From the NCBI GenBank assembly GCA_017382775.1, contig JAFNZQ010000305.1:1-11549 (forward strand): a DNA stretch of 11,549 bases. Reading direction: 5' to 3'. Under the pieces are notes generated by a model. That model was not told the origin of the DNA, did no database searches, and saw nothing but the letters and a program-made list of their open reading frames with translations. Each line of letters begins with the position of its first letter. Within the stretch, counting starts at the first letter, position 1. The position numbers and the translations under genes are program-made. The stretch comes from Spirochaetaceae bacterium (GTDB lineage Bacteria; Spirochaetota; Spirochaetia; Treponematales; Treponemataceae). Below are positions 2,211 through 4,744 of this stretch, piece by piece.

Positions 2211-2268
2211 GCCCTCGCAGCGGCAGAATGCTAGAAAGTCATTCTGGCACGAAAGCTGCGAGCGAGGG
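2211..2268. repeat. Long imperfect inverted repeat between convergent potD and recR, possible terminator
   Basis: CTCGCAGC on the left can pair with GCTGCGAG (2255-2262); alternatively CCCTCG pairs with CGAGGG (2263-2268). Inside, CAGAATG (2224-2230) pairs with CATTCTG (2240-2246) across a 9-nt loop. The right half is coding for the last residues of RecR. No clear T-run follows on either strand, so a role as a shared terminator is only inferred from its place between convergent genes. Confidence 0.45.
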
Positions 2269-2824
2269 TAAGTTTGTCAGCATATTCAATATCACCGCCC
2301 ACCGGAAGCCCGGAAGCAAGACGGGTTATTTTCAGTTCCGGATTGATTTCTTGAAGGATTTTTTGTAAATACAAGGCTGTGGTATCGCCTTCAATGGTGG
2401 GATTTAGGGCGAAAATTACTTCTCTCACATTATTTTCATTCAGACGTTTTATCAGTTGGGGAATGGCCAATTTTTCCGGCCCAATGCCTTCCAAGGGTGC
2501 AATCACTCCGTCCAACACATGGAACACTCCGGAATATTCACCGGAGCCGTTTATGGTAACCACATCTTGGGCCTGTTCCACCACACAAATTGTGGATGTG
2601 TCCCTGGTCGGATCGCTGCAAATTGGGCATGGATCAACTTCGGTGTAACTTCCGCAGACGGAACACTTTTTGATTTTTGACTGTATTGCGGTTAATTCCG
2701 ATGCGAATTGTTGTAAAAACCCGGCGTCGGCTTTTAGGCAAAAATAGGCCAATCGCATTGCCGTTTTTTTTCCGATTCCGGGCATGGACGAGAAAGATTC
2801 CGCTAGGTTTTCAATGGCGTTCAC
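2231..2824 (-). CDS. recR: Recombination mediator protein RecR
   Basis: RecR works with RecO (and RecF) to load RecA on SSB-coated single-stranded gaps. The 197 residues are the full usual length. The helix-hairpin-helix region is MPGIGKKTAMRLA (about 14-26). A four-Cys zinc finger uses C54, C57, C66 and C69. The Toprim fold begins at ICVVEQ (about 79), with NPTIEGDTTA, and the conserved end is GLPVGGDIEYADKLTLARSFRAR. Translation starts at GTG, which overlaps the ybaB stop as GTGA. There is no strong Shine-Dalgarno, so translation probably depends on ribosomes finishing ybaB. It is the third gene of dnaX-ybaB-recR, a widely conserved order. The 3' end forms half of an inverted repeat shared with the convergent potD end. 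Confidence 0.97.
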   Translation of the reverse strand: MNAIENLAESFSSMPGIGKKTAMRLAYFCLKADAGFLQQFASELTAIQSKIKKCSVCGSYTEVDPCPICSDPTRDTSTICVVEQAQDVVTINGSGEYSGVFHVLDGVIAPLEGIGPEKLAIPQLIKRLNENNVREVIFALNPTIEGDTTALYLQKILQEINPELKITRLASGLPVGGDIEYADKLTLARSFRARMTF

Positions 2825-3138
2825 AGTGAAAAATCCGAAAACATCCCGTTTGCAAGGGCAGGAGAAAGCTTTTCGTTCAATGTTTCACGAATTTTGGTTT
2901 GGGCATCGTGGTGAGCGGAGATGATTAAATCTTGGAGCATTGCCACATCCCGATTGTCCACAGCTGTGGGATCGATCACAATTTTTTCCAATTCAAAGTT
3001 TCCGTTTAATGTAACTTTAACAAGACCGCCGCCGGACATTCCTTCCGCGGTTATTTTTTTCATTTGTTCAAGGGCTGTTGAAAATTGTTGCCGCAAATTT
3101 TGGGCATTTTTCAACAAACTCATGGGATCAATCGTCAT
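2821..3138 (-). CDS. ybaB: YbaB/EbfC-family nucleoid-associated DNA-binding protein
   Basis: A 105-residue small nucleoid-associated protein. Family members form dimers that bind DNA and are usually encoded between dnaX and recR, as here. Typical features are the N-terminal helix (MSLLKNAQNLRQQFSTALEQMKK), the Gly-rich turn SGGGLVKVTLNGN, the strand LEKIVIDPTAV and the long C-terminal helix with DLIISAHHDAQTKIRETLNEKL. The ATG is preceded by GGAGGT at ideal spacing. This site lies within the last codons of the tau reading frame of dnaX, whose stop is 11 nt inside ybaB. The recR start overlaps its stop by 4 nt. The exact cellular role in this organism is not shown by the sequence. Confidence 0.95.
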   Translation of the reverse strand: MTIDPMSLLKNAQNLRQQFSTALEQMKKITAEGMSGGGLVKVTLNGNFELEKIVIDPTAVDNRDVAMLQDLIISAHHDAQTKIRETLNEKLSPALANGMFSDFSL

Positions 3139-3539
3139 TTTTCACCTCCGTGGCGTTAAACAGTTTTTTCAATATTTCGATTTCCACGGGTAAAGTTTCT
3201 CCCGGGCTACTGTCCGATGTAATTATAGCAGAATTAACGGTAAATGTCAAGTGTTTTCCTGTGATTTTAGACAAGGCGTTTAAAATCTGGGCTCGAGTTG
3301 ATTCAATTTGGTGTTTTTCGAAATCTGAATTTACGGTAAATTCGTACTTTCCGCCGTCAAATTTCCAGTCCGTGGTTTTTTCCAGCAACACTGCCGCCAT
3401 TGAGCCTTCTCGATGCAAAACGGCGATTAGTTCATTTTTGATTCCCGATAAATCCTCTAATTTTATTTCAGTGGGAACGAAAGGTTTTTCTTCTGATGGA
3501 GGAGAGGGAATTTTCGTTACAAAATCAGTTTTTTTTTTT
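3128..3539 (-). CDS. dnaX: Tau-specific C-terminal extension of DnaX, read in the +1 frame
   Basis: This open frame continues dnaX after the 11-A run but is +1 relative to the ATPase frame, and it has no credible start codon of its own. Joined by loss of one A (or an equivalent shift) it gives a 526-residue tau, adding about 133 residues that start TDFVTKIPS. The first part is Pro/Glu/Lys-rich and linker-like. It is followed by a folded region with IKNELIAVLHREGSMAAVLLEKTTDWKF in pieces and KHLTFTV near the end, as in other DnaX C-termini. In E. coli, tau-only domains IV-V bind DnaB and the alpha polymerase subunit, and the same role is inferred here. The frame stays open through to ybaB and overlaps its start by 11 nt, which argues against a decayed gene. 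Confidence 0.8.
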
Positions 3540-4709
3540 ATCGGCCGATGTGTAATCAACCTGTCCCGACGACACCATTTGCCGTAACTGGGTTAAATCA
3601 CACAGGATTTCTTCGGCTGTGGCGGTCTTTTTCAATGTGCAAAGTCGGATAATGGCCGCTTCCACCTCGTATCGAGGGCTTGCGGAAAAACGCAGGTCGC
3701 GAAAAAGTTGTAAAAACACCGAAAGTGCCCTTTCGATTCTGGGAATGTCCCATCCGGAAAGGACTTTTTGGGAAATTTTTTCGTGATTTTCACCTATCAC
3801 CGAGGCGTTGGTCACTCCGGAGCGAACCAGCAAAAGTCCTCGTAAATAGTCAATGCAATTCACCGTAAATTGTTCCACGGAAATTCCCGATTGCAGAAAA
3901 TCGTCAAACTTCTGTAAAACCGACAGGCTTTCTCCCTCAACGCAAAATTCGAAAAAGTCGTTCATTGTGGAAATATCCACCAGTCCCAACATGGATTGCA
4001 CTCTTTCCGCCGTTAAATTTCCGGCTGTGTAGGACACAGCTTGATCGTAAAGGGTGTAAGCGTCGCGAATACTTCCCGTGGCTTGGGATGCAATTTTCAA
4101 CAAGGCTTCGTTTTCAAAGGGAATTTTCTGTTCTTGGGCAACGTTGGTCAGCAATTCGCAAATACGTTCCGGAGAAACCAGTCTGTAATTAAAATGCTGG
4201 CAGCGACTTTTTATTGTGGCAGGAACTTTTTGAATTTCCGTTGTTGCGAAAATGAAAATAACGTAGGCCGGAGGTTCTTCAATGGTTTTCAAAAGGGCGT
4301 TGAAAGCACTTTGGGAAAGCATATGAACTTCGTCAATTATAAAAATTTTGTATTTGCACAAAACCGGCGGAAAAAGTACATCATCGCGGATTTGCCGAAC
4401 GTCGTTTACACCGGTGTTGCTCGCTCCGTCGATTTCGAAAACATCCGTGGAAACTCCGGCGGTGATTTGCTTGCAGGATTCACAAACTCCGCAAGGTTCG
4501 CCGTCTTGAAGGTTGGTACAGTTTACGGCCTTTGCCAAAATACGGGCGCTGGAAGTTTTGCCGCAACCGCGAGGGCCGGAAAAAATGTAGGCGTGGGCGA
4601 TTTTTCCGTTTTGTACGGAATTACGCAGAGTTTCCGCGACAAATTCTTGTCCGATTAAATCGGCAAAACGTTGAGGACGTTTGATAATGGCAGTGGCTTT
4701 ATACGACAT
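3525..4709 (-). CDS. dnaX: DNA polymerase III subunit gamma (DnaX ATPase frame)
   Basis: This frame encodes the clamp-loader motor that opens and loads the beta clamp. It gives 394 residues from MSYKATAIIKRPQ. Visible elements are Walker A GPRGCGKT (45-52), a zinc module with C64, C73, C76 and C79, DGASNTGVNDVR, Walker B IIDEVHM (124-130), LLKTIEEPP, sensor-1 ATTE and the SRC arginine-finger motif (168-170). The product ends KKKN-stop inside an A11 run just after the predicted third domain, which is where E. coli gamma ends. I prefer the ATG at 4709 to the in-frame ATG at 4727. The -10 box ends exactly 6 nt before 4709, there is no Shine-Dalgarno, and 4727 would lie upstream of the predicted transcription start. 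It heads the dnaX-ybaB-recR operon. Confidence 0.95.
   Translation of the reverse strand: MSYKATAIIKRPQRFADLIGQEFVAETLRNSVQNGKIAHAYIFSGPRGCGKTSSARILAKAVNCTNLQDGEPCGVCESCKQITAGVSTDVFEIDGASNTGVNDVRQIRDDVLFPPVLCKYKIFIIDEVHMLSQSAFNALLKTIEEPPAYVIFIFATTEIQKVPATIKSRCQHFNYRLVSPERICELLTNVAQEQKIPFENEALLKIASQATGSIRDAYTLYDQAVSYTAGNLTAERVQSMLGLVDISTMNDFFEFCVEGESLSVLQKFDDFLQSGISVEQFTVNCIDYLRGLLLVRSGVTNASVIGENHEKISQKVLSGWDIPRIERALSVFLQLFRDLRFSASPRYEVEAAIIRLCTLKKTATAEEILCDLTQLRQMVSSGQVDYTSADKKKN
3529..3539 (-). promoter_or_regulatory. dnaX: A11 slippery run joining the gamma and tau frames of dnaX
   Basis: On the coding strand GAT is followed by eleven A and then CTGA. Read as is, the product stops as KKKN. 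One A fewer (or two more) opens the 526-residue tau frame; one more A gives KKKKLIL then stop. Homopolymeric A runs at this place are known to produce gamma and tau by transcriptional slippage in Thermus thermophilus, and by -1 ribosomal frameshifting at A AAA AAG in E. coli. Here tau needs +1 or -2, which favours slippage of RNA polymerase. A sequencing error in the homopolymer is the main alternative. Confidence 0.75.
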
Positions 4710-4715
4710 AGTTAT

Positions 4716-4744
4716 ATGATAGCACATATTTTTTTTTTAGTCAA
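4716..4744 (-). promoter_or_regulatory. Promoter of dnaX-ybaB-recR, predicted leaderless
   Basis: On the minus strand, TTGACT at 4744-4739 is followed by a 17-bp spacer that opens with an A-tract, then TATCAT at 4721-4716 with an extended-10 TGC in front. Only ATAACT separates the -10 box from the ATG at 4709, so transcription should start on or next to the A of the start codon. Confidence 0.78.

Follow-up and report, generated by a model that had tools for sequence, protein, structure and literature searches.

In Thermus thermophilus, dnaX is reportedly subject to transcriptional slippage, as described by Larsen in 2000. The dnaX gene of Escherichia coli takes another route, a -1 programmed ribosomal frameshift at A_AAA_AAG aided by stimulators, with tau as the default product (PMC5009743, in the section cited here). 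According to passages in two sources, Thermus gamma is translated from slipped mRNAs because stop codons lie in both of the frames that do not encode tau (PMC1088944, PMC5009743). Split dnaX genes that need recoding to give tau were reported as new by Antonov 2013 (PMC3711429), where the relevant section lists 17 genes from 12 genera. All 17 have tau at -1 at the DNA level and 12 contain poly-A, of which nine are A10 and one each is A9, A8, and A7. Transcriptional realignment was proposed for these genes, and the same text attributes a shift direction that differs among relatives to transcriptional realignment and one that relatives share to ribosomal shifting (Antonov 2013, PMC3711429). In Blochmannia vafer and Blochmannia floridanus, dnaX is interrupted at a homopolymer, and slippage was proposed to restore tau (PMC3017870, as far as the cited passage goes). 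For the spirochaete Borrelia burgdorferi, a statement in PMC9879097 holds that the frameshift element is apparently absent and that perhaps tau only is made. Apart from this statement, we found no earlier account of slippage or register change in spirochaete dnaX in the openly readable literature.

The dnaX gene is split at a run of eleven A's in the assembly

The window analyzed here is a stretch of 11,549 nucleotides and represents an entire contig (G000:C254) of a metagenome-assembled genome (MAG) of 1.44 Mb in 308 contigs, which is 81.5% complete. Its minus strand carries the gene order dnaX-ybaB-recR, with the following features.

3525 to 4709, minus strand: dnaX zero frame, gamma-length, 394 aa, ending in KKKN-TGA (TIGR02397, PF13177, PF12169)
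3529 to 3539, minus strand: A11 run, candidate RNA-polymerase slippage site, exact count in the assembly
3128 to 3528, minus strand: tau C-terminal frame, +1 to the gamma frame, 69% identical to residues 391-525 of the related protein P0002
3517 to 3519, minus strand: stop codon of the third frame (KKKKLIL tail)
2821 to 3138, minus strand: ybaB/ebfC, whose ATG shares 11 nt with the end of the tau frame
2231 to 2824, minus strand: recR, the final gene in dnaX-ybaB-recR
4716 to 4744, minus strand: promoter-like TTGACT-17-TATCAT upstream of dnaX, a consensus match alone

On the ATG side, dnaX starts at 4709 of the minus strand with a protein that begins MSYKATAI, and the gamma frame ends SADKKKN-TGA, its stop codon lying at 3527-3525. 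Pfam and NCBIfam profiles place the ATPase, the lid, and domain III within this zero frame, and TIGR02397 (dnaX_nterm) matches it with 437 bits. The match of PF12169, which represents domain III, stops at residue 369, and the A11 run begins at codon 391; the gamma stop therefore follows domain III, as the initial annotation had placed it. After the run, the +1 frame reads RPIKKKTDFVTK and closes at the TGA at 3130-3128, which gives a tau of 526 aa (390 codons before the run and 136 from its start). The frame arithmetic first proposed for this locus, namely an ATPase frame ending in KKKN, a +1 tau frame, and a 526-aa tau, was right, and the assembly confirms that dnaX is split at A11 with tau in the +1 frame. 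A third product had also been proposed, and its KKKKLIL frame exists; it would merely be gamma with a different short tail, as in Thermus.

Only one frame is open at A11, and it runs for 136 codons from the run start, whereas the two frames that do not encode tau meet stops 4 and 6 codons from that point. The +1 frame is free of stops for 132 codons after the run, for which base composition gives a chance of ∼1e-4. Runs of at least 10 A or T occur 17 times in the 1.44-Mb genome (20 overlapping pattern hits), and three of them have length 11. By simple proportion, the chance that one such run falls on the coding strand no more than 300 nt from the boundary is ∼0.002. The base that follows A11 is C, and the in-frame heptamer is A_AAA_AAC.

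Upstream of dnaX, the promoter-like site contains an A10 run inside its 17-nt spacer, and its -10 element ends 6 nt before the ATG. This suggests that the dnaX mRNA is leaderless and that a spacer of variable length is possible. Another sigma-70-like site, TTGACA-17-TATAAT (12/12, with a TG before the -10), lies at 3222-3250 of the minus strand, where the sequence encodes the tau C-terminus; it precedes ybaB by ∼83 nt and may give ybaB-recR a transcript of its own. Our promoter scan returned 5 sites of any quality versus 2.8 in shuffles.

The +1 frame resembles the C-terminus of tau

We searched ∼5.8 billion proteins with the DnaX sequence, scored 8000 candidates, and listed the best 120. P0001 is identical to the gamma of the window and has 3 member sequences on 2 contigs. 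Since the longer of these contigs has 16,315 bases and the window 11,549, the 394-aa product is not confined to the window contig. The nearest other protein among the matches listed, P0002, is 91% identical in the gamma part; the named matches belong to Treponema sp. at 58-60% identity. P0002 is a protein of 525 aa encoded in a single uninterrupted frame, with KKK at the matching site. The +1 frame of the window resembles the end of P0002 with 69% identity over 137 residues, a result that bears out the gamma/tau reading of the initial annotation. NCBIfam PRK06647 (gamma/tau) gave a weak match to the +1 frame (positions 465-563 of the 568-position profile, E 9.5e-4), and Pfam gave no match on this frame. 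Together with the named Treponema sp. matches, PRK06647 puts the window close to Treponema. Judged by the similarity to P0002 and by the overlap of its end with the start of ybaB, the +1 frame is the tau C-terminus. When the C-terminal region of P0002 was used as query, P0002 alone was found (1 of 223 candidates), and hence no uninterrupted copy from the species of the window was present among the 223.

A runs at the gamma/tau boundary recur in other Spirochaetota

Our family search matched 257 of 274 genomes, and the dnaX open frame of the window (403) was the shortest among the matches listed, the next being 495. The phylum search matched 374 of 392 genomes; short dnaX frames among the matches listed came from the same family (G056, G058, G061, and G064) and from elsewhere. 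We took 18 short-frame loci and 2 others for inspection. An A9-A11 run followed by tau out of register was present in six of these 18 (L173, L174, L180, L182, L189, and L190). Seven others (L175, L176, L177, L178, L184, L185, and L186), as read by eye, are tau genes that are short by nature, their frames finishing in a motif like that of a C-terminus or where the next gene begins. Two of these seven, L184 and L185, have tau in frame at an A10 run and lack the two nearby stops. In L187 the gene is cut by the contig end. One same-family locus, L188 (G064), has a zero frame of 419 aa with tau at f+2 and no run of at least 7 A's at the junction. G016 (L132, G016:C331) was the one genome besides the window to give its dnaX match as two adjacent pieces in one of our searches, but its break lies at the ATPase-lid region (query residues 187-199), away from any long run; we therefore left it out as not a slip site and attribute the break to error or decay.

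Three further same-family loci, L179, L181, and L183 of genus g20, are gamma-default and have tau at -1 across T_TTT_TTA, with no A run. This heptamer occurs in all three short-frame g20 species taken; it is known from HIV and is named in a passage of PMC5009743. It is a candidate for a -1 ribosomal shift that would produce tau in g20.

Gamma-default dnaX genes are found elsewhere in a one-contig assembly (G563) and in a chromosome record, that of Candidatus Haliotispira prima (L032). L032 was the best match by E-value in our scan of named genomes, whose relatives are 35-47% identical. In family f8, seven of seven genomes combine a run of A9 or A10 with a zero frame that measures 386-399 aa, and all seven have a conserved end motif (recognized by eye) in the f+2 frame. 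The layout in f8 has exceptions: in L195 a second frame is also open, and the remaining frame stays open for as many as 15 codons in L194 and 20 in L196 before it closes.

We used a set of 70 genes from the order, made up of the window, 29 others, and 40 chosen from the family matches listed. The longest A run within codons 350-460 was 6 in 10 genes, 7 in 10, 8 in 2, 9 in 3, 10 in 8, and 11 in 1. In the other 36 of the 70 it was shorter than 6. Many relatives thus have an uninterrupted dnaX with no A run, an observation that, by the initial annotation, would refute a programmed site. We did not take it as a refutation because 11 of 69 relatives have A9-A10 there and other spirochaetes have A9-A12; it does speak against the slip device in that the device is not universal among relatives. 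A run of at least nine A's occurs in 12 of the 69 order relatives versus a mean of 4.5 and a maximum of 9 in 1000 synonymous-codon shuffles, although one of the 12 (L015) has its run at codon 542, outside the linker. For runs of at least ten, the count is 8 of 69 versus a shuffle mean of 1.7 and a maximum of 5. Both off-frame stops fall within 12 codons for 9 of 11 linker runs, compared with 2700 of 16,374 positions in the 69 relatives.

We then pooled 190 loci without dropping any, 111 from Spirochaetota (the window and L032 included) and 79 others, none titled spirochaete, and called a frame closed if it closes within 12 codons. Of the 111 Spirochaetota genes, 35 have an A9-A12 run close to the end of domain III; this pool is not random but enriched for short frames and two families. 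For runs at codons 361-460, two closed frames and one open frame surround 27 of the 35 A9-A12 runs versus 133 of 661 A3-A5 runs; the genes are related, so these counts are not independent draws. Eight of the 35 lack the two closed frames, and three of these eight belong to f8, which otherwise counts in favor of a slip site. In the remaining 79 loci, the same layout surrounds 13 of 15 A9-A12 runs versus 166 of 421 A3-A5 runs. In Fibrobacter, all five loci scanned (L046, L048, L050, L052, and L063) have A10 at codon 385 with tau in frame, and the other two frames stop 3 and 5 codons on.

The register of tau differs between species of genus g71

A search of family f19 matched 22 of 26 genomes. 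Five species of genus g71 gave the following runs and tau registers.

L200: A10, tau at +1
L201: A11, tau at f+2
L202: A12, tau at f+2
L203: A10, tau in frame
L204: A11, tau at f+2

In all five, counting from where the run begins, the off-frame stops come at 3-4 and 7 codons. A sixth g71 genome (G595) was left out; its dnaX was recovered as two incomplete parts, and a stop interrupts one of them. The three registers amount to a tau-default state, a +1 gamma-default state, and a -1 gamma-default state.

We compared the g71 C-termini in their own frames, never joined to the gamma part. In all 10 pairs pN (0.25-0.44) was lower than pS (0.69-0.82), with synonymous sites so near saturation that dN/dS ratios are unreliable; the gamma parts gave pN of 0.06-0.13 and pS of 0.66-0.85. 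Since protein-guided alignment can itself favor pN below pS, we repeated the comparison on nucleotide alignments. The tau frame again had pN (0.21-0.42) below pS (0.64-0.79) in 10 of 10 pairs, with a difference of 0.2 to 0.5 between the two. The two frames that do not encode tau gave pS of 0.18-0.60 and pN of 0.34-0.49; there, pS either fell below pN or exceeded it by no more than 0.14. This pattern points to purifying selection: the g71 C-termini that are out of DNA register are, by their substitutions, still selected as protein.

These data lead to a broader proposal, about which we are evenly divided. Across its poly-A junction, dnaX would lack a fixed reading frame and would walk through all three registers between sister species while the run, the stops, and the C-terminus stay under selection, and the window would represent the A11/+1 state in another genus. 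Slippage in those spirochaetes would be efficient enough to make the register in the DNA almost neutral.

Alternative readings of the run

Long homopolymers are error-prone and mutable, and the count of exactly eleven A's could be an error or drift. The same MAG holds a second gene broken at such a run, a PF00860 xanthine/uracil permease interrupted at T10 (L123:1182-2469, G000:C226), whose pieces match PF00860 profile positions 1-103 (upstream) and 96-383 (downstream). Its best match is an intact 420-aa sibling in one frame with 93% identity, which does not separate error from mutation. The tilS gene of this MAG has an A10 run within an intact frame. Three of the 17 runs of at least 10 are in recognized genes (dnaX, the permease, and tilS) and two of the three break the frame, the remaining runs having been classed by open frames rather than annotation, with two or three short frames ambiguous. 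Since homopolymer indels, by error or mutation, occur in the MAG, the count of eleven needs checking.

The genome could truly be A10, with the assembly or the reads in error, or the population could be mixed. The gene would then be a single-frame tau gene, with slippage to gamma possible. The uninterrupted P0002 with KKK at the site and the broken permease both speak for this reading. Against it, the 394-aa product is found on 2 contigs of unlike length, though perhaps from one sample; the P0002 C-terminal query recovered no other uninterrupted copy (1 match in 223 candidates); and gamma-default dnaX is seen again in G563 and L032. We consider an A10 genome unlikely, yet deserving of serious attention. 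It overlaps with the slippage explanation: with ten A's, the claim of a gamma default falls and tau becomes the default, but the slip site stands.

Runs this long readily gain and lose bases, and the break in dnaX could be an ordinary frameshift mutation or a sign of gene decay that serves no program, with tau lost or made only by leakage. The permease of the same MAG, broken at a homopolymer with no known program, is consistent with such decay. However, the break in dnaX coincides with the gamma/tau boundary, the tau frame continues unbroken to its end and is P0002-like, and the layout recurs in other phyla. The out-of-frame C-termini of g71 are also still under selection, though with synonymous sites near saturation. 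Decay is improbable in light of these findings.

Programmed ribosomal frameshifting would require tRNA-Lys to slip +1 (or -2) into the tau frame. AAA-on-AAA re-pairing is perfect along the run, and A_AAA_AAC could permit a -1 shift, but -1 leads to the KKKKLIL tail and a stop, so that such a shift would give no tau in the window. The initial annotation had drawn this same conclusion and our frames agree with it. Other dnaX genes of the family may use ribosomal shifting, as L179, L181, and L183 with tau at -1 across T_TTT_TTA would allow. In the window, the predicted fold of the 60 nt downstream of A11 is weak (-5.4 kcal/mol, z -0.61), and orthologous runs in sister species need different shifts, the mark of transcriptional realignment in the cited text of Antonov 2013. 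We judge ribosomal shifting at this run to be quite improbable. Lastly, it is very improbable that gamma and a C-terminal fragment are two separate proteins arising by internal initiation or re-initiation, since the TTG at 3559, a start available to the tau frame before gamma terminates, has a start signal that seemed poor by eye, P0002 is one continuous 525-aa frame, and the fragment has no Pfam domain match.

A putative gamma/tau switch by RNA-polymerase slippage

Directly before the run lies a palindrome, noted by the initial annotation without a role, and we folded the RNA around it.

3540 to 3549, minus strand: palindrome ATCGGCCGAT directly before the run, largely the 3′ arm of the predicted hairpin
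3543 to 3561, minus strand: predicted 7-bp RNA hairpin (arms 3555-3561 and 3543-3549, -7.0 kcal/mol)

The palindrome does adjoin the run, and most of it forms the 3′ arm of this modest 7-bp hairpin, which ends 3 nt upstream of A11. Compared with shuffles, the upstream fold is modest and not outstanding (z of -1.63 for 30 nt, -0.82 for 40 nt, and -0.96 for 60 nt); of 200 shuffles, 15 match the 30-nt upstream segment in stability. A hairpin in the nascent RNA can stimulate slippage, as a passage of PMC5009743 states, and the predicted hairpin is a possible, weak stimulator here.

The run, its frames and stops, the conserved tau frame, and the relatives' sites in three registers are read directly from the DNA. 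With these at hand, we regard it as rather likely that A11 acts as a gamma/tau switch through RNA-polymerase slippage, and the run is probably a functional gamma/tau slip site. RNA polymerase would make dnaX mRNAs that vary in their number of A's. By standard translation, a run of 11 A's in the mRNA, or of a length that differs from 11 by a multiple of three, would give gamma ending in KKKN, a run of 12 A's gamma ending in KKKKLIL, and a run of 10 or 13 A's readthrough into the 136-codon tau C-terminus, which would link the clamp loader to polymerase and helicase. Slippage, its efficiency, and the production of both proteins are what we infer from the comparative data. If the polymerase yields a mix of mRNA lengths regardless of the run length in the DNA, the frame written in the DNA would matter little and could drift between lineages; in the lineage of the window it would have settled with gamma as the default product.

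RNA-polymerase slippage had been put forward as the simplest route, and the comparative data back this since direction is not conserved in relatives. With tau at +1 behind A11 in the window and at +1, in frame, or at -1 in g71, there is no fixed direction, which by the distinction drawn in the cited text of Antonov 2013 points to transcriptional realignment. A ribosomal shift of fixed direction would not explain the three registers of g71, and RNA-polymerase slippage would. Gene callers will take such essential genes for truncated or broken.

Comparison with known systems

Like Thermus, the window has an A run in dnaX with early stops in both non-tau frames, and gamma and tau would come from one gene. 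The Thermus-type traits seen here are a run of at least nine A's at the gamma/tau boundary and off-frame stops nearby in both frames; an mRNA heterogeneous in run length and gamma and tau near 1:1 are the further traits of that type. Thermus, in the passages cited, has A9 with tau in one DNA frame, whereas the window has A11 and gamma is encoded in the DNA by a zero frame of 394 aa. E. coli likewise obtains gamma and tau from one gene, but the window has A_AAA_AAC in place of A_AAA_AAG, and a -1 shift does not switch between gamma and tau. A stem-loop downstream and a Shine-Dalgarno-like stimulator upstream are further traits of the E. coli type. The Blochmannia genes resemble the window in that dnaX is interrupted at a homopolymer and tau could be restored by slippage; their break lies downstream of the slippage site in the tau-only region and is discussed together with gene erosion (PMC3017870, in the passage cited).

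The window also shares its layout with the GeneTack cluster of Antonov 2013, in which gamma ends the zero frame at poly-A and tau lies in another frame. Unlike those genes, which are -1 in the cited text, the window is A11 and +1 (or -2). In relatives, tau is likewise at f+1 in L200 and lies at f+2 in L032, L201, L202, and L204. Taken together, gamma and tau made by slippage and gamma-default dnaX genes are already known; the window adds the A11 run and the +1 direction, and its relatives supply the non-conserved direction, which, by the cited text of Antonov 2013, was not reported for dnaX.
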